Shown: one piece after another, positions 5,897-47,573 of the stretch
How positions within the stretch are numbered: the first letter of the stretch is position 1
Layout: each line of letters begins with the position of its first letter
Source: Bacteroidota bacterium
GTDB taxonomy: Bacteria > Bacteroidota > Bacteroidia > Chitinophagales > Chitinophagaceae
DNA length: 64,000 bases
Assembly: GCA_018267615.1 (NCBI GenBank)
Contig: JAFDYD010000002.1
Location: 1 to 64,000, forward strand
Direction: 5' to 3'
Made by a program: the position numbers and the translations under genes
Notes under the pieces: generated by a model
What the model saw: the letters and a program-made list of their open reading frames with translations, nothing else
What the model was told of the DNA's origin: nothing
The model's database searches: none

Positions 5897-5950
5897 AACA
5901 AAATTTTTTATGAATTTAAATTAGAAAAAATAATTAGGATGTTAAATTGT

Positions 5951-6102
5951 CTGAACCGGGATTTTAAACGATTTTACTGATTAAGCTGAACGAGCTTCGT
6001 GGTTCAATTTTTTTGAACCAAAAAGACACCAAGGCACGAAGTTTTGAATGCGTTTTGACACGATCAGCATAATCAGTAAAATCGTCCAAAAATCCCGGTC
6101 AG
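5951..6102. repeat. Composite long inverted repeat after acrB
   Basis: Left arm 5951-5992 and right arm 6061-6102 pair over about 42 bp with few mismatches. Inside lie a second hairpin, GGTTCAA..TTGAACC (about 6001-6019), and a further pairing of CTTCGTG with CACGAAG. The right arm ends four bases before the acrB stop codon. The outer words (ACGATTTTACTGATT) resemble those in the repeat at 24138-24285. Confidence 0.85.
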
Positions 6103-16110: not shown

Positions 16111-17163
16111 GTGAAACATAATTTCAACTCAGGACCAAGTGTTCTTCCCAAAGAAGTATTTGAGCAAGCAAGTAAGGCGATTATTGATTTCAATAATTCC
16201 GGTTTGTCCATTCTCGAAATCGGGCATCGCACAACGCTGTTCCAGGAAGTATTGGACGAAGCAGAGGCGACTGCAAGAGAATTGATGCATCTTGATGACG
16301 AACATAAAATATTATTCCTTCACGGCGGCGCCACCACTCAATTTTTCCAGGTGCCGATGAATTTACTGAATGAAGATGAAACAGCAGCCTATCTAGATTG
16401 CGGTACATGGGGAATCAAATCAATCAACGAAGCAAAAATTTTTGGAAATGTAAATGTTGTTGCGTCCTCAAAGGATAAAAATTATACCTATATCCCGAAA
16501 AATTTCGTGATACCGGAAACTTCAAAATATTTCCATTTTACAACCAACAATACGATTGAAGGGACGCAGACACATTTTATTCCGGATACAAAAGTGCCGT
16601 TGGTTGCCGATATGAGCAGCGATATACTGAGTCGTGAAATGGATTTTAATCGTTTCTCCCTGATCTATGCCGGCGCTCAAAAAAATATTGGGGCCGCGGG
16701 TGTGAATATGGTGATTGTAAAAGAAGATATTCTTGGAAAAGTAAATCGCAAGCTTCCGTCGATGATGGATTATCAAAAACATATTGAAGCAGGATCAGTG
16801 CTCAATACACCTCCTGTATTCGCTATATATGTGTGTATGCTTACTTTAAGATGGCTAAAGAAAATCGGAGGCATCGCTGCTATTGAAAAAATAAATAATC
16901 AAAAGGCAGACTTACTATATAGCACTTTAGATTCACTTCCTCTTTTCAAACCCACAGTTGCAAAAGAAGATCGAAGTAAGATGAATGTAGTATGGGTGAT
17001 GGAAGATCCGGAACTTGAAAAGAAATTTCTTGCAGTCTGCAAAGAAAATGGAATGGTGGGCGTGAAGGGCCATCGCAGCGTTGGCGGATTTCGCGTGTCG
17101 CTTTATAATGCGTTGCCTCTTTCAAGTGTTGAACTGTTAACAGATATAATGAAGAACTTCTGA
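16111..17163 (+). CDS. serC: Phosphoserine aminotransferase
   Basis: PLP enzyme making 3-phosphoserine from 3-phosphohydroxypyruvate in serine synthesis (and the related step for vitamin B6 in some bacteria). 350 residues, normal length. The opening FNSGPSVLPKEVFEQA is diagnostic, HGGATTQF (71-78) binds the phosphate of PLP, and Lys191 in AGAQKNIGAAG is the Schiff-base lysine. The C-terminal GHRSVGGFRVSLYNA is the substrate end. The start is GTG at 16111, matching the family N-terminus. In many Bacteroidota serC, serA and a DUF1015 gene are together; serA is missing between serC and DUF1015 here. Confidence 0.95.
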   Translation: MKHNFNSGPSVLPKEVFEQASKAIIDFNNSGLSILEIGHRTTLFQEVLDEAEATARELMHLDDEHKILFLHGGATTQFFQVPMNLLNEDETAAYLDCGTWGIKSINEAKIFGNVNVVASSKDKNYTYIPKNFVIPETSKYFHFTTNNTIEGTQTHFIPDTKVPLVADMSSDILSREMDFNRFSLIYAGAQKNIGAAGVNMVIVKEDILGKVNRKLPSMMDYQKHIEAGSVLNTPPVFAIYVCMLTLRWLKKIGGIAAIEKINNQKADLLYSTLDSLPLFKPTVAKEDRSKMNVVWVMEDPELEKKFLAVCKENGMVGVKGHRSVGGFRVSLYNALPLSSVELLTDIMKNF

Positions 17164-17191
17164 TTTGAATGATTTGACTGATGGGCTATGT
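17154..17191. repeat. Family G left arm, containing the serC stop
   Basis: GAACTTCTGATTTGAATG and following bases pair with 17668-17704 at about four fifths of positions. The serC stop TGA lies inside the arm. Related arms begin at 28065 and 45280, each also overlapping a stop codon. Confidence 0.8.
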
Positions 17192-17264
17192 GGGTTATAT
17201 AGCTGTTCGAAAACCGTTAAATCACTTGCTGTATTTATCCGGATTTTCTGATCTTGTAGTCCTA

Positions 17265-17672
17265 ATGCCAAATGAAAATCCAGCATATAAACATTCTGAA
17301 ATAACTTCAAAAATTCTTGCTGCTGCTTTTGAAGTACATAAAATAATCGTTTCCGGATTTCAGGAATTAATATATCAGCGAGCACTGGGAATAGAATTTG
17401 AAAAAAGACAAATTCTTTACCATATGGAAAGTGAGTTACCGATAATATATAAAAATCAAAAAGTTGGATTAAGGAACGTTGACTTTCTAATTGAAAATGT
17501 TGTTGTAGTGGAAATAAAAGCAACTTCGAAACTTGAGAATGTTCATTTGGCGCAAGCAATCAACTATCTGGAAGCTTTTAATATCGATATTGGACTTCTT
17601 ATTAATTTCGGAGCTTTAAGACTAGAGTATAAGAGAATCATTCACCCGAAACTATTAAGAAATAAAACATAG
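17265..17672 (+). CDS. GxxExxY protein, PDDEXK-like fold
   Basis: A 135-residue GxxExxY family protein: GFQELIYQRAL carries the name motif, and NVDFLIENVVVVEIKA gives the D..(V)E-x-K pattern of PDDEXK nucleases. The biochemical role is unknown; nuclease activity is only suspected. I chose ATG 17265 (MPNENPAYKHSEITSK), since the family starts there and the upstream frame reads through repeat sequence. The gene is wholly enclosed by the two family G arms, and its TAG stop lies in the right arm. It sits where serA would be expected between serC and DUF1015, which suggests insertion of a gene together with, or into, a repeat. Confidence 0.85.
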   Translation: MPNENPAYKHSEITSKILAAAFEVHKIIVSGFQELIYQRALGIEFEKRQILYHMESELPIIYKNQKVGLRNVDFLIENVVVVEIKATSKLENVHLAQAINYLEAFNIDIGLLINFGALRLEYKRIIHPKLLRNKT

Positions 17673-17704
17673 TAAATCTTTTCAATCATTCTAATCAGAA
17701 GTTC
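17668..17704. repeat. Family G right arm
   Basis: Partner of 17154-17191. It contains the stop codon of the GxxExxY gene at its 5' edge and ends on the base before the DUF1015 ATG, so it occupies the entire 32-base spacer between the two genes. Confidence 0.8.
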
Positions 17705-18934
17705 ATGGCTACTATCAAACCTTTTTCCGCCCTCAGACCCAAACCAGAGCTTGCAAAAGAACTCGCTTCTCCTCCTTACGATGTTTTGAATTCAGAAGAA
17801 GCAAGAAAAGAAGCCGCTGGTAAAAAATATTCTTTTTTACATATCACCAAATCAGAAATTGATTTACCTGAAAATATCGATACGCATAGTCAGCAGGTAT
17901 ATGATAAAGCAAAAGAGAATTTAGAATCGTTCCAACAGAAAGGAATTTTATTCAGCGAAGAAAAACCCTGCTACTATATTTATCAATTGATCATGGATGG
18001 GAAAAGTCAAACCGGTTTGGTATGCGTGAGTTCTGTTGATGATTATGAAAAAGATATTATCAAGAAACATGAATTGACCAGACCCGATAAAGAATTGGAT
18101 CGCATCAATCACATGAAAACTATTGGTGCGCAGACTGGCAATGTATTTCTTGCATATAAAACGAATGAGACAATACACAAAACTATCGAGGATTGGAAAG
18201 CCAGTCACCACCCTACTTATGATTTTATTGCCGACGATGGAATCAAACATATCGTTTGGGTAGTGAACGATGATGCAACGAATGAAAGGATAACAAAATC
18301 ATTTTTACAAAATATTCCCTTCACATATATCGCCGATGGCCATCATCGCGCAGCTTCTGCCGCCAAAGTGAGAGCTGCATTGGGAAACAATGCAACTTCC
18401 GAGGCGAATTATTTCCTGACAACTTTATTTCCTTCCGATCAATTACATATACTCGCTTATAATCGCGTAGTAAAAGATCTGAACGGGATGACGGAAGAAG
18501 AATTTCTGAATCAGCTGGAGAAAAAATTTTTAGTAGGTAAACTAGATAAACCTTTTTCACCGGCGGGACTTCACGAATTCGGAATGTATCTCAACGGAAG
18601 CTGGTATGAACTCGTTGCAAAAGAAAATGCATATACGGATGATCCTATTGGAATTTTAGATGTTACGATTCTCCAGGAAAATATTCTCGATAAAATTCTT
18701 GCGATTAAAGATGTAAGAACCGATAAGCGAATAGATTTTGTCGGGGGTATCAGGGGATTGGATGAATTGGAAAAAAGAGTGAACAGTGGAGAAATGAAAG
18801 TCGCTTTCAGTTTGTATCCGGTGAGTATTCAGCAACTGTTCGATATTGCCGACAGTGGAAAAATTATGCCGCCGAAAAGCACTTGGTTTGAACCGAAATT
18901 GAGAGACGGTTTGTTGACACATTTGATCCTTTAA
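17705..18934 (+). CDS. DUF1015 family protein
   Basis: A 409-residue cytoplasmic DUF1015 protein, often found next to serine-synthesis genes but without a proven reaction. Family landmarks: FSALRPKPELAKELASPPYDVLN is the typical opening, then DKELDRINHMKTIGAQTGNVFL, IADGHHRAASA near residue 212, which resembles a metal or phosphate-binding loop, and KRIDFVGGIRGLDELEKRV near 342. The start ATG directly abuts the family G repeat arm. Its neighbour serC suggests a role related to serine or its phosphate ester; this is inference from gene order only. Confidence 0.88.
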   Translation: MATIKPFSALRPKPELAKELASPPYDVLNSEEARKEAAGKKYSFLHITKSEIDLPENIDTHSQQVYDKAKENLESFQQKGILFSEEKPCYYIYQLIMDGKSQTGLVCVSSVDDYEKDIIKKHELTRPDKELDRINHMKTIGAQTGNVFLAYKTNETIHKTIEDWKASHHPTYDFIADDGIKHIVWVVNDDATNERITKSFLQNIPFTYIADGHHRAASAAKVRAALGNNATSEANYFLTTLFPSDQLHILAYNRVVKDLNGMTEEEFLNQLEKKFLVGKLDKPFSPAGLHEFGMYLNGSWYELVAKENAYTDDPIGILDVTILQENILDKILAIKDVRTDKRIDFVGGIRGLDELEKRVNSGEMKVAFSLYPVSIQQLFDIADSGKIMPPKSTWFEPKLRDGLLTHLIL

Positions 18935-25719: not shown

Positions 25720-25740
25720 ACACTTTGGTTTATTGTTTAT

Positions 25741-25845
25741 GTCTGAACTTGGATTTATGGGATGCATAGGATGAGTGGGATAATCTGGTAAATTTTTATT
25801 CAATTTCCCATACATCCTATCACTCTCAAAAATCTCAGTTCAGAC
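25741..25845. repeat. Inverted repeat, family H, in a divergent promoter space
   Basis: Arms 25741-25782 and 25804-25845, about four fifths identical. Words: CTGAACT, GGATTTATG, GATGCATAGGAT. A sister copy is at 37049-37150. Unlike most repeats here it lies between divergent genes. Confidence 0.85.
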
Positions 25846-25989
25846 AAAATAAAATCTGATCTAGTCAAAATTAATAAATCTGAATCTGTTTTTAATAAAA
25901 GATTTTGAAGAATTTTACGTAAGAAAAGCAAGAATCGGGTACGCAGGTTTTTGCAGTTGTATGAATTTTACAACGCAATACTTAACGTG

Positions 25990-27027
25990 ATGAAAAAGAT
26001 TGAAATAAAAATAATAGACTATCGTCCGGAACATCAGTCGCATTTCGAACGGCTCAACCGGCATTGGATAGAAAAATATTTCTGGCTTGAGCCGATAGAC
26101 AAATTTGTTTTGATGGAACCTGAAAAAGCGATCCTCCAAAGAGGTGGCAATATTTTGATGGCAACTATCAATAATGAAATCGCAGGAACAGTTGCTTTAA
26201 AAAAAGTAGATGAGACTACTTATGAATTTACCAAGATGGCTGTCGATGAAAAATTTCAAGGCAACGGTTTGGGATATGCGTTAACAAAAGCAGCAATAGA
26301 AAAAGCAAAAATCATGGGCGCTGAAAAATTGTTGCTCTATTCTCATACTTCCTTAAAAGCCGCCATCCATTTATATCGCAAAGTTGGATTTAGGGAAACT
26401 CATCTCGAACCTGGCGTTTACTCACGCAGTGATATTAAAATGGAAATGGATCTTGATCAGATCAAAATTATAAAGGCTGATGAAATGTATGCAAATGCGA
26501 TTTCAACTATCGGGAAAAAATCTTTTCACGATGCTTTCTTGCCTACTTTCAATAGGTATGAGGACCTGGTAGAATATCTTGATTACACGTATAACGTTGA
26601 AAAAATAACCGATAGTATTAAAAAATCCAATAATGTCTTTTTTGTAGCGTTATATAAAAACAAATTGGCGGGCTTTGCAAAGGTGAAAAAACAATCGTTG
26701 AATATGCAACTGACCGGCAGCCGTCAAATGGAATTGCAAAAGATATATGTGCTAAAGGAGTTTCATGGTACCGGTGTTGCGGCAGCTCTTCTGCATTCGG
26801 TTATCGGTCTCGCAAAAAATATTCGTCCCGCTTGTATATGGCTGGATGTATATATAGGAAACAAACGCGGTATCCGCTTTTATGAAAAGAATGGTTTTGA
26901 AAAATTTGGTAAACATTCTTTCAAAATCGGTACACAGATTTTTTCTTATGATCTTATGATTTTGCCCGGCGCCGTTTTTGGCGTTAATCAGGAATCATCA
27001 CAAATCGTTAGCTATGGAAATGACTGA
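25990..27027 (+). CDS. Tandem GNAT N-acetyltransferase
   Basis: A 345-residue protein holding two GNAT domains. The first (residues about 3-148) includes the acetyl-CoA loop VDEKFQGNGLGYALTKAAIEKA and CoA-side SLKAAIHLYRKVGFRET. The second (about 160-325) has VLKEFHGTGVAAALLHSVIGLAK and RGIRFYEKNGFEKFG. In the first domain the loop Q/R-x-x-G-x-G/A is fully kept (QGNGLG); the second reads HGTGVA. Acceptors are unknown. I use ATG 25990 (MKKIEIKIIDYRPEH). The last 14 bases overlap the ilvE start, so the genes are probably co-transcribed. Confidence 0.85.
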   Translation: MKKIEIKIIDYRPEHQSHFERLNRHWIEKYFWLEPIDKFVLMEPEKAILQRGGNILMATINNEIAGTVALKKVDETTYEFTKMAVDEKFQGNGLGYALTKAAIEKAKIMGAEKLLLYSHTSLKAAIHLYRKVGFRETHLEPGVYSRSDIKMEMDLDQIKIIKADEMYANAISTIGKKSFHDAFLPTFNRYEDLVEYLDYTYNVEKITDSIKKSNNVFFVALYKNKLAGFAKVKKQSLNMQLTGSRQMELQKIYVLKEFHGTGVAAALLHSVIGLAKNIRPACIWLDVYIGNKRGIRFYEKNGFEKFGKHSFKIGTQIFSYDLMILPGAVFGVNQESSQIVSYGND

Positions 27028-28078
27028 AACAATAAGAATCCACAAAACCAATCACTCAACACTCGCTGATGTTGATTGGAGCAATCTTGAGTTTGGTAAG
27101 TATAACGCGGATCACATGTTGGTTTGTGATTTTTTAAATGGAGCATGGGAATCGCCAAAAATAATTCCTTTTGCAAATCTCTCACTGAGCCCGGTAACAC
27201 TTTCATTGCACTATGGACAAACAATATTTGAAGGGATGAAGGCTTTCCGAATGATCGATAAGCGTATCAGCATTTTTCGTCCTGAAAAACATTATGAAAG
27301 ATTTGTCCGGTCTGCAGAGCGTATGTGCATGGAAGTTATACCAAGGGAAATTTTTATGGAAGGTTTGCACGAGTTGATCAAGTTAGATGGGGCCTGGGTT
27401 CCGTCAGCAGCCGGATCAGCGTTATATATCCGCCCATTTATAATAGCAACAGAAGCAAAGCTTGGTGTTAAAATATCTGAAGCGTATAAATTTCTCATTG
27501 TAAGCGGACCTGTAGGCTCGCTTTATCAAAAACCGATATCAGTAAAAGTAGAAACAAAATTCGTTCGTGCTTCCAGGGGAGGAACAGGCTGTGCAAAATG
27601 TGGTGGCAATTATGGTGCAGCATTCTATCCCACAAAAAAAGCCAGGGAACAAGGTTATGACCAGGTATTATGGACCGACGGAAAAGAAAATAAATATATC
27701 GAAGAATCAGGAACGATGAACGCGATGTTTGTGATCGATAATAAACTGGTGAGTCCGCCATCTTCTGATTCTATACTGGATGGTGTTACAAGAGATTCGT
27801 TTATTACATTGGCAAAACAAGAAGGCATCACTGTTGAAGAAAGACCCGTGAGCATTGACGAACTAAAAAGATCCTTTCGTGATAATACCATCACAGAAGC
27901 CTTTGGTGTAGGTACCGCAGCCGTTGCAACCCAGATCAAACTGATCGGTATCGATAACGTGCATTATAATCTTCCAACAAAAAAAGAATCCATTGCCGAA
28001 TTACTGAAAGCAAAACTCGATGGCATTCGTACAGGAAAAATTCCTGATGTGAATAATTGGAATAAACTTCTGATTTGA
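27014..28078 (+). CDS. ilvE: Branched-chain amino acid aminotransferase
   Basis: PLP enzyme of leucine, isoleucine and valine metabolism, 354 residues from the ATG at 27014, of the longer eukaryote-like BCAT subtype. The PLP lysine is Lys195 in GTGCAKCGGNYGA; the conserved QVLWTDGKENKYIEESGTMN follows. The redox CxxC pair of mammalian BCAT is absent: the equivalent region reads FGVGTAAVATQIKLIG. The start overlaps the GNAT gene. The stop lies in a family G repeat arm. An ATG two codons later is an alternative start. Confidence 0.92.
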   Translation: MEMTETIRIHKTNHSTLADVDWSNLEFGKYNADHMLVCDFLNGAWESPKIIPFANLSLSPVTLSLHYGQTIFEGMKAFRMIDKRISIFRPEKHYERFVRSAERMCMEVIPREIFMEGLHELIKLDGAWVPSAAGSALYIRPFIIATEAKLGVKISEAYKFLIVSGPVGSLYQKPISVKVETKFVRASRGGTGCAKCGGNYGAAFYPTKKAREQGYDQVLWTDGKENKYIEESGTMNAMFVIDNKLVSPPSSDSILDGVTRDSFITLAKQEGITVEERPVSIDELKRSFRDNTITEAFGVGTAAVATQIKLIGIDNVHYNLPTKKESIAELLKAKLDGIRTGKIPDVNNWNKLLI

Positions 28079-28386
28079 ATGATTGAAATGATTTGCTATG
28101 TGTAACTATGTTTCTACTGTGCCTATGTGGTGAAAAAAAATTTACCACAGCAGGAACATAGTTACACATAGTAATTCAAAACTCCGACATTAACCACTCT
28201 TCCTCATCCATACACAGTAAATCATTTTAATCAGTTAAATCAGAAGTTCCTACCGTGGCAAATTTTTTTTCACCACATAGGCACAATAGAAACATAGTTA
28301 CACATAGTAATTCAAAACTCCGACATTAACCACTCTTCCTCATCCACACATAGTAAATCATTTTAATCAGTTAAATCAGAAGTTCC
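28065..28386. repeat. Composite repeat: family D hairpin inside family G arms, with duplication
   Basis: G left arm 28065-28094 (includes the ilvE stop) pairs with 28219-28248 and again with 28355-28384. A family D hairpin (28096-28171) sits inside. A 96-bp block, 28155-28250, is repeated at 28291-28386 with two differences (period 136). The D left arm (28096-28132) pairs better with 28271-28307, one mismatch, than with its nearer partner. The space before the next gene (28420) holds nothing else apart from a weak -7 box TAACTTTC (28392-28399). Confidence 0.92.
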
Positions 28387-37034: not shown

Positions 37035-37048
37035 GATGAGTGGTTATG

Positions 37049-37150
37049 ATCTGAACTAGGATTTATGAGATGGATAGGATTTATGGGAAATTAAGAATGA
37101 TGATTTTTAATTTCCCATATATCCTATCCATCTCAAAAATCCTAGTTCAT
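37049..37150. repeat. Inverted repeat, family H, inside the mannan operon
   Basis: Arms 37049-37092 and 37109-37150, about nine tenths matching. Words GAACTAGGATTT, GAGATGGATAGGAT and TATGGGAAATT. Between symporter and GH26, both minus strand. Sister of 25741-25845. Confidence 0.93.
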
Positions 37151-37153
37151 ACC

Positions 37154-38278
37154 TTATTCATATATTTTTTCTTTCGCAATATCTTTTTGAAAAATAGTAT
37201 TATCGGCATTATAAAAATCCACAAAATCTTTTGCAGAAGCCTGACCTTTATATGGCACATAAAAATCAGCGTGACCAGGAGTTGTATATCCTGCATTGCG
37301 CCACCCGAGCACATAAGCGATATGATGAGGCTGCAATGTTTTCAGGAAAACTTTTGTCCACCATAAACTATCCGGCAGGCCAACAAAACCAAATTCTGTA
37401 AGGGCAGGAATTTTATTTTTCTCTGTAGCGATCTCTTCGAGGTCGGTCAGTGTTCTGTCGAACTCCTTCATAAAATCTTCATTCCGGAGAATATTATTTC
37501 CCTGGTAAATATCGAATCCGATAATATCAACCCATTCGTCACCTGGATATCTTTCAAGATAAATTTGTTTTGATGCAAAGCGATCGGTATTGAATGCATA
37601 TAACAGGTTATGTACATTTTTTTCGTCGCGCAAATAAGTTTCGGTAAAACGATACAATTTTTTTATTTCTTCCGATGTACAATTCTTACCGCCCCACCAA
37701 AACCAGTTTCCGTTCAATTCATGAAAAGGCCTGAAGATAACCGGGATCAATTCTCCATTTTTTCCTTTCAGACTCAATATGAATGCCGCGATTCTATCGA
37801 GCCATGTTTTATATAAATCATGTTTTTCACCTCCGGGTAATATGGAAGCAACGGTGCCCGGCGCAGGATCCCAAGCTGTTTTACCAGTAAGCGGATTGTT
37901 CAGATGCCAACTGATAGTTATAATTCCACCGCGCGCATATCCTTCACCGATAAATTTTTTCATAGCATCAAAAGGAACGGAATCCAGGTTCATAGGATGA
38001 TCCAATTCAATGCGCCCGAGTTCCCAACCATATATTGCCGGATAATCGCCGGTAACATCTTTGATATCACTTTTTTCCGGAATATATTTCCAGCCGACAC
38101 CGTAAGCGAGATCATCCTGGTGGCCGAACAAAAAACCTTTTCCGGAAAGTCTTTTTAGATTTTGATAAAGATGGATAGTTTGGGTAGTCGCTTTTTTATC
38201 AACCGGGAGGTTCTGGCTGAATGAGCAATTAGCAACTGCTACTAAAAGAAGCAAGCCAACCGTTTTTTTTTGCGACAT
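37154..38278 (-). CDS. GH26 beta-mannanase
   Basis: A 374-residue exported GH26 enzyme that cuts beta-1,4-mannan to mannobiose or longer units. Signal peptide MSQKKTVGLLLLVAVANCSFSQ; the start at 38278 is preferred to a 20-codon upstream extension for that reason. The acid/base Glu is in VIFRPFHELNGNWFWWG, the nucleophile Glu in PALTEFGFVGLP, both in the right order. It lies first in the minus-strand mannan operon, next to the divergent AraC regulator, and has a good promoter. No carbohydrate-binding module is attached. Confidence 0.93.
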   Translation of the reverse strand: MSQKKTVGLLLLVAVANCSFSQNLPVDKKATTQTIHLYQNLKRLSGKGFLFGHQDDLAYGVGWKYIPEKSDIKDVTGDYPAIYGWELGRIELDHPMNLDSVPFDAMKKFIGEGYARGGIITISWHLNNPLTGKTAWDPAPGTVASILPGGEKHDLYKTWLDRIAAFILSLKGKNGELIPVIFRPFHELNGNWFWWGGKNCTSEEIKKLYRFTETYLRDEKNVHNLLYAFNTDRFASKQIYLERYPGDEWVDIIGFDIYQGNNILRNEDFMKEFDRTLTDLEEIATEKNKIPALTEFGFVGLPDSLWWTKVFLKTLQPHHIAYVLGWRNAGYTTPGHADFYVPYKGQASAKDFVDFYNADNTIFQKDIAKEKIYE

Positions 38279-44185: not shown

Positions 44186-45288
44186 GATTATTGCTTAACA
44201 AATTTTACTTGCTGATTTTTTTGCTGGTTCCATTCGTTGTATGCTCTCAAACATTGCGTGACATTGCTGATTCAGTTCGTTTGTCGAGAGGTGTTCCCGG
44301 GTTGGTGTACGCTGTTTTTACAAGTGACAGCATCTTGGACCAGGGAGCCTGCGGAGTTAGAAAATACAGAACAAAAGATAGTATCCGTATAACTGATTGC
44401 TTTGATATTGGTCTCAATACTGCTGCCTTTACATCTTATATCGCCGCAAAAATGGTAGAGGAAAAAAAGATAAATTGGGATACGAAGTTGTTAGATATTT
44501 TCCCTGATTTTAAAAAGAAAGCATTTCCTGTTTATAAAAATTTAACGCTTGTTGATTTATTATCAAACCGCACTGTCGTTCCACTTTATACCGAATTAAA
44601 TGATCTGTCAAGAATCCCAAATATCGAAGGCAAAACGATGTCGTCCAAGCGAAGACAATTCACGATGTATATGCTTACGCAAAAACCATTTCTGGATAAT
44701 TTCGTTTCCAAAAAAATTGCGTTTTCAATACCGGCTTATGTGATGGCCGCTTCCATGCTTGAAAAAGTCGCGGGAAAAAAATGGGAAGGATTGGTAAACG
44801 ATTACATCAACATCCCTTTAAAAGTTACAATCAAATATGGATGGCCATTTATGACAGATAGTACAGCGCCTGCGGGACATTGGACGCAGGGAAACTATTT
44901 CCATGCCGAAGGAGCAGATACATGGGTGCGGCCTAACCCGATTTTGTATCCTGCACATCATATCAGTATCAATTTGCAGGATTATATCAAGTTTATGCAG
45001 GAAAATCTTTCAGGGCTTCTCGGCAAAACAGCTCATTTGAAAAAAGAGACTTTTGAATTTTTACATTTTGGTTTGATAGATTATGCACTGGGATGGAATA
45101 ATGGTGCACTGGATAATTATTCATATTCTTTTCACGAAGGACTTTCATTCCTCTACAATTGCAGAGCCGTTATTATCAAAGAAAAAAATATCGGCATCGT
45201 AGTTATGTGCAACTCTGGTGATAGCGATGGCCGCGGAGCAGTTTTGAATTTGACGAGAATATTGGAGAGCCACTATTTAAACTTCTGA
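44182..45288 (+). CDS. Beta-lactamase-fold protein with lost catalytic residues
   Basis: A 368-residue exported serine beta-lactamase/PBP4-like protein. The signal peptide is MRLLLNKFYLLIFLLVPFVVCSQ. The fold is clear (DIADSVRLSRGVPGLVYAVFTSD, LVDLLSNRT, LEKVAGKKW), but the motif normally reading F-x-I-G-S-x-x-K-x-F-T is FDIGLNTAAFT (74-84): the nucleophile Ser is Leu78 and the Lys is Ala81. The YxN motif is FSI (181-183). Only a HxG-like FHEGL near 330 survives. It should be catalytically dead, perhaps a binding protein. It is co-translated with the sterol-desaturase-like gene. Confidence 0.85.
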   Translation: MRLLLNKFYLLIFLLVPFVVCSQTLRDIADSVRLSRGVPGLVYAVFTSDSILDQGACGVRKYRTKDSIRITDCFDIGLNTAAFTSYIAAKMVEEKKINWDTKLLDIFPDFKKKAFPVYKNLTLVDLLSNRTVVPLYTELNDLSRIPNIEGKTMSSKRRQFTMYMLTQKPFLDNFVSKKIAFSIPAYVMAASMLEKVAGKKWEGLVNDYINIPLKVTIKYGWPFMTDSTAPAGHWTQGNYFHAEGADTWVRPNPILYPAHHISINLQDYIKFMQENLSGLLGKTAHLKKETFEFLHFGLIDYALGWNNGALDNYSYSFHEGLSFLYNCRAVIIKEKNIGIVVMCNSGDSDGRGAVLNLTRILESHYLNF

Positions 45289-45431
45289 TTGGAATGATTG
45301 AAATGATTTACTATGTAGTTAGGAAAGAAAACTAATTTCATCTATTTAAATTTATTGCTATAGTAAATCATTTTAATCAGTTCAATCAGAAGTTGCTCAG
45401 TAAATCATTTCAATCATTCCAATCAGAAGTT
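45280..45431. repeat. Perfect 33-bp inverted repeat, family G, with duplicated right arm
   Basis: Left arm 45280-45312 and outer right arm 45399-45431 are exact complements. A second, imperfect right arm is at 45358-45394. The left arm contains the stop of the beta-lactamase-like gene and the right arm touches the stop of the convergent transglutaminase gene. Confidence 0.95.
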
Positions 45432-46384
45432 CATTGCTGCTGCATCATCTCCATATATCTTCTATAAGAATTTTCACCGGTTGGATTTTTTGACGGCTGC
45501 GCTTTTAATAAAATATTTTCCTCTTCGGTAGAACGTCCGTCTTCATATGTTACCGACACGCCCACTTCAAGCTGCTGTCCGGATATCCCTTTAAATGTTC
45601 CTTTTACCGGAGAGCAATCGCTGAAGTTGCGTCCCACAGCAAGACGTACATGCAGGTCATTCGCCAAACAATTATTCGTGGGATCGATACCGAGCCATCC
45701 ATAAAAAGGAATATACGCTTCTACCCATGCATGTGTGGCGCCTTCACCACGCATATCATTTTTATTCGGACAAACATAACCGCTTACATATCGCGCAGGA
45801 ATATTAGTAATGCGCAACATCACAAGCAGCATATGCGCGAAATCCTGGCACACGCCTGCTTTTAGTTTCCAGACTTCGTCGAGTGTGGTTTCTACATCGG
45901 TAATACCTTTGATATATTTAAAATTTGAAAACACAAATGCCGCCATTTTCTTTGTAGCCTCGAGCGGCGTGCAATTTTTGCACTGCTGTTCCTCGAGTAC
46001 GCGAACCACATCCTGCAAAGAACTAAACTGCTCCTGATTTAAAAAATCGATAAAAGGAACCTGGAAACGCAGCGCTTTCATTTGTTTCCACTGCTCATCC
46101 GCAGGCATGCTGTCTTTTGGCGAAGGCCGCACGCGCGTTATCACTTCCACCTTTGAATCGATCAGCATTTCAGTATGCGGCTCCGCATACATGAACGATC
46201 CAATTTCATTCCCATAATAATCTTTGTAGGTTTCTATTTCCGGTTCATTGCTAATATGAATTTCCTGTTTCACCACATCCTGGTATTCATCCCTGATAGG
46301 AAAAAGAATGATCTGGTTGGCACTGTCACGCACCGGAGCTTCATAAGTGTACTTGGTGATATGATGAATTTTGAAACGTGGCAT
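45431..46384 (-). CDS. Transglutaminase-like peptidase family protein
   Basis: A 317-residue protein, N-terminal bacterial transglutaminase beta-sandwich (RFKIHHITKYTYEAPVRDSANQIILFP) and a C-terminal catalytic core. The catalytic Cys is in KAGVCQDFAHMLLVML, the His in GATHAWVEAYIP and the Asp in GWLGIDPTNN, so the triad is intact. No signal peptide is visible. Its two upstream neighbours are the alpha-E and circularly permuted ATP-grasp proteins. These three families (COG1305, COG2307, COG2308) recur together and are predicted to make and cut an unknown peptide or amide tag. Spacers of 137 and 116 bp hold palindromes. Confidence 0.9.
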   Translation of the reverse strand: MPRFKIHHITKYTYEAPVRDSANQIILFPIRDEYQDVVKQEIHISNEPEIETYKDYYGNEIGSFMYAEPHTEMLIDSKVEVITRVRPSPKDSMPADEQWKQMKALRFQVPFIDFLNQEQFSSLQDVVRVLEEQQCKNCTPLEATKKMAAFVFSNFKYIKGITDVETTLDEVWKLKAGVCQDFAHMLLVMLRITNIPARYVSGYVCPNKNDMRGEGATHAWVEAYIPFYGWLGIDPTNNCLANDLHVRLAVGRNFSDCSPVKGTFKGISGQQLEVGVSVTYEDGRSTEEENILLKAQPSKNPTGENSYRRYMEMMQQQ

Positions 46385-47485: not shown

Positions 47486-47573
47486 TAGTGACTTGAAAAG
47501 AGTGGAGGAACAGGGCGGAGAGCGTAGAGCTCTACGCTCTCCGCCCTGTTCCTCCACTCTTTTCAAGTCACTA
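47486..47573. repeat. Perfect 88-bp palindrome with no loop
   Basis: Every base of 47486-47529 pairs with 47530-47573; the centre is GAGCTC. The right end is the TAG stop of the ATP-grasp gene, mirrored as TAG at the left end. GC-rich in the middle. It separates two genes of a conserved trio. Confidence 0.98.

Follow-up and report, generated by a model that had tools for sequence, protein, structure and literature searches.

RAYT proteins belong to the IS200/IS605 line of HUH Y1 tyrosine nucleases. In the REP/RAYT (TnpA-REP) systems and the REPINs, extragenic palindromes are abundant, and inverted copies of these palindromes flank a single gene for a small nuclease (PMC2817692, PMC3116915, PMC8266576). 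The locus described here lies in a 64,000-nt stretch of the genome of a member of the Chitinophagaceae (Bacteroidota; contig JAFDYD010000002.1, positions 1 to 64,000), hereafter the window, and resembles these systems in that a gene, in this case of the GxxExxY family, is flanked by inverted copies of a genomic palindrome, that the palindrome type is coupled to the protein type, and that gene-less miniature pairs occur as well. It differs from them in the enzyme, which is a Cas4/RecB-like PD-(D/E)XK protein and not an HUH Y1 one (the HUH signature was not found in the window protein), in the arms, which are 38-45 nt arrays of ~9-nt words instead of short REPs, and in the presence of several copies per genome (0-12) that belong to divergent clades.

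A second system of comparable build is the intervening sequence (IVS) of 23S rRNA genes, which in Coxiella carries a four-helix-bundle ORF with heptamers in tandem beside it and has inverted repeats at its termini (PMC4990558). Like the IVS (S23p, PF05635), the GxxExxY element is of sub-kilobase size, ends in inverted repeats, holds a single small ORF in its loop and has short repeats in the arms, but it is found between the protein genes serC and DUF1015 and not in an rRNA gene, its arms have a period of 8-10 (mode 9) and not 7, and the S23p protein is unrelated and lacks the nuclease fold, the window ORF matching PF13366 only. Insertion sequences with MITE derivatives (e.g. the MITEs of P. 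gingivalis, PMC4596501) likewise have terminal inverted repeats and non-autonomous copies, whereas the GxxExxY element has neither a DDE nor an HUH transposase. Finally, the Cas4, RecB and lambda-exonuclease PD-(D/E)XK nucleases share with the GxxExxY protein the fold and the D, ExK and QxxxY motifs, but the latter is a minimal domain of 120-135 aa, and its gene in the window is not accompanied by a partner gene of CRISPR or recombination type.

No report of an association between GxxExxY genes and palindromes was found in the literature searched, mainly freely available journal articles; there, GxxExxY appears only in passing in two papers, in one as a neighbour label and in the other as a gene-list entry, and PDDEXK_3 nowhere. 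The gene and its arms look like one compact element of selfish type, seemingly undescribed.

A GxxExxY gene enclosed by inverted arms

An earlier note on this DNA had described a 135-residue GxxExxY protein with a PDDEXK-like motif, encoded between two inverted arms, one of which contains its stop codon, and had observed that the arms share words with the palindromes at 28065 and 45280. Each of these points was borne out (Table 1). The two arms, 38 nt long, 79% complementary and 475 nt apart, are the longest inverted pair of the region, and their score of 45 was reached at 0 of 1240 window positions of the same geometry (median 15, maximum 30). Both are flush with the neighbouring genes, and the final SerC residues and stop are read from the left arm (AAC TTC TGA), the C-terminus being ..LTDIMKNF* here versus ..LMKEFATQKA* in most relatives. 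The window arms read GAACTTC-TGATT-TGAA-TGATT-TGAC-TGATG and fit the frame of the ends found with the GFQE protein clade (see below). They were also compared with R1, a sequence-only model of 65 arms from other genomes, whose training arms were selected by the word GTCTGAAC, and which matches the left as well as the right arm (E 1e-3 and 5e-4, respectively). We consider that 17154-17704 probably represents one copy of a compact element, in which two inverted quasi-periodic arms surround a single nuclease gene.

Table 1. Coordinates of the GxxExxY locus, its neighbours and the gene-less palindromes of the window (R1, arm model described in the text)
Feature	Position	Strand	Remarks
Arm of GTCTGAACC/GATT type	5949..5989	+	In gene-less palindrome 5951-6102; R1 match
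serC (phosphoserine aminotransferase)	16111..17163	+	PF00266; arm replaces last ~5 codons
Left inverted arm (GAACTTCTGATTTGAATGATTTGACTGATG...)	17154..17191	+	serC stop (17161-17163) inside; R1 match 17154-17182, E 1.1e-3
GxxExxY gene	17265..17672	+	ATG at 17265; 135 aa, PD-(D/E)XK nuclease family, GFQE clade; TIGR04256/PF13366; fold model pLDDT 91; catalytic columns kept
Right inverted arm	17667..17704	-	GxxExxY stop (TAG, 17670-17672) inside; R1 match 17665-17705 minus, E 5.2e-4
DUF1015 gene	17705..18934	+	PF06245, 3.2e-111; ATG directly 3' of right arm, no gap
Gene-less palindrome with GTCTGAACTTGGATT arm	25733..25852		R1 match at 25741
Gene-less palindromes, same arms	28065..28385	28065-28094 +; 28217-28249 -; 28353-28385 -	R1 matches; nested CTATGTG-type palindrome; stop of upstream ORF 26978-28078 inside left arm
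Gene-less palindrome, TCTGAACT/GGATT arms	37045..37156		54 nt, 89%; R1 match 37050-37149
Gene-less palindrome, same arms	45280..45433	45280-45310 +; 45364-45394 -; 45397-45433 -	R1 matches; stops of both convergent flanking genes in or at its arms

The GxxExxY protein and its predicted fold

Pfam and NCBIfam assign the window ORF to PDDEXK_3 / GxxExxY only, with scores above the cut-offs (TIGR04256, 118.6 bits vs 35, E 1.8e-34; PF13366, 116.5 bits vs 22, E 1.1e-33). The best fold match of its AlphaFold2 model in the PDB is SSO0001 (4ic1), which we take to be a Cas4 nuclease (Foldseek E 4.5e-5, Z 10.2 over 101 residues), followed by weaker matches to LHK-Exo, lambda exonuclease and MGME1, and a PDB search by sequence gave no relative, the S100 matches at E 0.65 being due to chance. 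Residues G30, E33, Y36, D72, E82, K84, Q96 and Y100 (numbered from residue 2 of the protein) are present in the window protein and invariant, or nearly so, in 58 sequences, and with D72, E82xK84, Q96xxxY100 and E33 they fit a PD-(D/E)XK site with a QxxxY motif. Because of the Cas4-like fold of the model and these conserved residues, the protein likely has nuclease activity, and a role as the nuclease for the hairpin ends of the arms is plausible.

Inverted arms accompany GxxExxY genes across genomes

The genome from which the window comes (G000) holds six GxxExxY loci, one of them broken (from seven matches), and at least four of the six lie visibly in inverted arms, of different word families. 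Among 116 GxxExxY genes of Bacteroidota genomes, chosen by the Pfam model only, 54% have an inverted-arm score of 40 or more, as against 0 of 835 control ORFs, and the median scores are 41 and 21, respectively. A similar proportion, 55%, reaches this score in the 78 GxxExxY loci from named records, which were chosen by the GFQE motif and include Pedobacter, Spirosoma, Anabaena, Pseudanabaena and Oscillochloris, as well as bins labelled Nitrospirae, Spirochaetes, Fibrobacter, Ignavibacteriaceae and Dojkabacteria (metagenome-bin labels as given). The association with arms of this kind is therefore found at other GxxExxY genes as well, so that the lack of association which the earlier note had named as a refutation was not observed, and the earlier suggestion of a gene captured by, or mobilised with, a palindromic element was right in that gene and palindrome belong together. 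Capture is the less likely part of it: since the arm type follows the protein clade, GxxExxY is more likely the coding form of the element.

A possible fusion of GxxExxY to a large protein is seen in three genomes that belong to a single genus, where an 883-codon open frame contains the domain (G085:C9:91047-91385, G096:C22:338274, G112:C1:72351).

Arm type follows the protein clade

The arms fall into three word types, TGATT/GGATT, CRCNNAG and CRCNGAT. GFQE proteins, including that of the window, have arms of TCTGAAC and TGATT words, repeated about every 9 nt, and GLLE proteins have arms of CACAGAG/CGCAAAG words. A protein and its nearest neighbour, taken from among those with <70% identity to it, agree in arm type in 80 of 88 cases (label shuffling: mean 37, maximum 56), and in loci picked by PF13366 only, GATT arms are found with 14 of the 14 classified GFQE proteins vs 4 of 52 other proteins (p 4e-11). 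A first Mantel test based on local alignment of the arms gave a weak correlation (r 0.16, p 0.007), because the arms share word frameworks and not whole sequences, and k-mer and word-class tests were used in its place. Protein identity was found to correlate with the 5-mer content of the 110 nt next to the gene (r 0.15-0.26, p<=0.004), and the correlation is close to zero for the flank farther from the gene.

The GFQE elements have common ends, GTCTGAACY-N-TGATT..TGATT.., in distinct left (GTCTGAACYNTGATTNNNNTGATTAAATGATT..) and right (GTCTGAACTATGATTTATTTGATTTTTGGATT.., reverse complement) versions, of which the initial GTCTGAAC is part of the selection rule and most of the remainder is not. 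Element length ranges from 456 to 709 nt, most often 462. In our view the nuclease and its arms probably evolve as a matched pair.

Beside one GFQE GxxExxY gene, five GTCTGAAC-type arms lie in direct tandem, ~45 nt apart (L340:70-330; G117:C1:1588776-1588988), which looks as if arms can amplify in tandem.

Gene-less palindromes track the cognate gene

Arms of the same type are also present without a gene, in the window (Table 1) and in the genome as a whole. With up to three mismatches, the 5.37 Mb genome contains 32 copies of the arm word AACTTCTGATTNGAATGATTGAAATGATTT and 0 of its reversed control; most of these matches form opposed pairs 50-200 nt apart, those at 28065 and 45280 among them. 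R1 gives 121 arm matches at E<=0.05 in the same genome, with 25 inward-facing pairs (span 79-301 nt) vs 2 other neighbour pairs. In nine of its gene-less palindromes the arms are 96% identical within a locus and 69% between loci, with a conserved word frame and variable spacer letters on which the two arms of one locus agree. Because the agreement is higher within than between loci, these sequences suggest either that one arm served as the template of the other or that selection maintains their pairing. Relatives such as G010 have gene-less pairs of lower symmetry.

Arms of CTATGTG..CACCACATAGG type are nested in the GATT-type palindrome at 28065-28385, and the same kind flanks another GxxExxY gene of the genome (L002:1415-1956). 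The perfect, spacer-less inverted repeat of 44 nt at 47486-47573 belongs to a different sequence family.

In samples of 20-64 kb per genome, palindrome density is high in G000 and G026 and low in G010 and G020, although the latter two have GxxExxY genes; raw density is therefore a loose correlate only, and the clade-specific model R1 is the better test. Among 60 relatives, in which a GFQE-type gene was defined as a match to the window protein at E<=1e-24, R1 matches are found in 7 of 11 genomes with such a gene vs 3 of 49 without (p 8e-5), and three or more matches in 6 of 11 vs 0 of 49 (p 9e-6). Across the phylum (118 genomes) the counts are 18 of 28 with a GFQE gene, G092 and G141 being borderline members of the 28, vs 2 of 90 without (p 3e-12).

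A proposed mode of spread

The explanation that in our opinion fits best, and which we regard as probable, is that of a compact (~0.46-0.7 kb) REP/RAYT-like or IVS-like element, with a nuclease matched to its own hairpin ends and with the gene-less palindromes as its miniature derivatives; its mobility and the cleavage are what we infer. The arms would fold into hairpins, either as a cruciform or in single-stranded DNA during replication, and the nuclease would cut these at their base, close to the conserved TCTGAAC end. A new intergenic site would then receive a copy of the element or of one of its gene-less derivatives, probably via a fold-back (snap-back) intermediate, by which the second arm would become a copy of the first, and gene-less copies would spread in trans. 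Stop codons within the arms would make insertion at gene ends harmless, and the whole arrangement would work like a REP/RAYT pair with an unrelated enzyme.

Some observations speak against this explanation. No signal of a target-site duplication was detected in 43 elements, neither for lengths of 2 to 9 nor when the boundaries were shifted. Unlike ordinary insertion sequences, the GxxExxY family is rarely carried by plasmids (8 of 72,556 records) and was found in 0 of 50,697 phage records. For strand transfer, a nuclease of 130 aa would depend on host factors. In the genome G082 there are five R1 matches and no GxxExxY match, several GFQE-positive genomes are devoid of R1 matches, and the R1 training arms had been picked by the word GTCTGAAC and the named loci by the GFQE motif. 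Given that no target duplication was detected, and given the plasmid and phage counts, the GxxExxY element resembles chromosomal REP/RAYT more than insertion sequences.

One GxxExxY gene with CACAGAG arms is found directly after radA in a record labelled as a 24.8 kb Bacteroides finegoldii plasmid (L341, NZ_OY725952.1); with radA and thrA on it, this record has the look of a piece of chromosome.

Alternatively, the palindromes could owe both their origin and their spread to a different (host) mechanism, with the nuclease gene as a parasite that inserts into matching palindromes, cuts gene-less copies and spreads by gene conversion. Such homing or hitch-hiking would agree with the gene-less palindromes far outnumbering the genes, with the nesting of palindromes of different families, with the occurrence of an unrelated four-helix-bundle family (PF05635) in palindromes, and with the arms without a gene in G082. 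We consider it unlikely, though, in view of the arm type, which follows the protein clade across genomes and phyla, of the defined element ends, whose left and right versions differ systematically, and of seven same-genus genomes without a GxxExxY gene, in whose sampled stretches long palindromes are all but absent.

Four-helix-bundle genes with similar architecture

Genes of the four-helix-bundle family PF05635 are multi-copy in many of the same genomes and also found in inverted arms, with period 7 in 12 of 14. Loci of this family (23S_rRNA_IVP; L057-L086, with C23:4268, C50:67520, C44:285869 and C5:46409 in G000) have period-7 words such as (TTAACGC)n, (GGTTGAC)n and (AGTGGTT)n, and are probably the intergenic form of the rRNA intervening sequences. 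Thus, two unrelated small genes share one architecture, each with its own arm period. In a relative, G017, a four-helix-bundle gene is located directly upstream of serC (G017:C24:30036-30353), the serC operon having been invaded there independently by this other element type.

The period 7 of these arms would be in line with an element acting at the RNA level, in which RNase III cuts out the arm RNA hairpin, insertion is neutral and the nuclease takes no part in spread, as would the Coxiella IVS, of 428 nt, with terminal inverted repeats, heptameric repeats upstream of the ORF and excision by RNase III (PMC4990558). This is quite improbable for the GxxExxY loci, as it leaves unexplained both that the arm sequence follows the nuclease clade and that gene-less copies track the gene, and a search of Rfam gave no family matches.

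Placement and genomic neighbours

The elements are often placed at the 3' ends of genes: in 29 of 52 the first 24 nt of the left arm contain the stop of the upstream gene (control 1.1%), and the ATG of the downstream gene is within 8 nt of the right end in 17 of 50 (control 5.3%). Around 40% of the GFQE-type elements (L207-L286) are in type I restriction-modification operons, where many of them follow hsdS or hsdR immediately, and in two cases (L239 and L241) both sides of the element resemble the hsdR end.

The GFQE nuclease might be a working accessory of these operons, with the arms as their regulatory hairpins. Its neighbours include HsdS (14/51) and the HsdR C-terminus (6/51) upstream, and HSDR_N (8/50), RhuM (7/50) and HsdS (4/50) downstream, but more than half of the loci, that of the window included, are outside such operons and the gene-less copies sit between ordinary genes, which makes this a very improbable explanation.

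The serC-DUF1015 junction

The proposal of the earlier note that the GxxExxY gene took the place of serA in a serC-serA-DUF1015 operon can practically be dismissed, as a serA-sized gap (~970-1250 nt), presumably occupied by serA, is found between serC and DUF1015 only in other families of the order, whereas in 19 same-genus loci the two genes are adjacent, at a distance of 5-36 nt that holds no serA and no GxxExxY gene, and serA-like genes are located elsewhere in the genome (contigs C4, C20 and C33, all under the strict TIGR01327 cut-off, C4 being the best). The same-genus genomes thus provide the empty site, and from this adjacency and the serA-like genes elsewhere it follows that the element was inserted into the serC|DUF1015 junction.

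Significance

GxxExxY is a family of no known function, and its tie to cognate hairpin ends gives it one that can be tested. The link between arms and gene would explain abundant intergenic palindromes, and it would represent a second, independent arrangement of REP/RAYT type, with a Cas4-like nuclease as its enzyme. Were the nuclease sufficient for spread by itself, this would be a very small DNA-mobility system. More tentatively, the GxxExxY genes may form a new class of self-spreading palindromic element, in which a lone Cas4-like nuclease of ~130 aa would recognise clade-specific hairpin ends and disperse itself and its gene-less miniatures by fold-back, in about half of the sampled Bacteroidota genomes and in loci from Cyanobacteria, Chloroflexi, Nitrospirae, Spirochaetes and others. 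Should this be true, few known autonomous DNA elements would be as small, and many of the quasi-periodic palindromes between the genes of such genomes would find an explanation.
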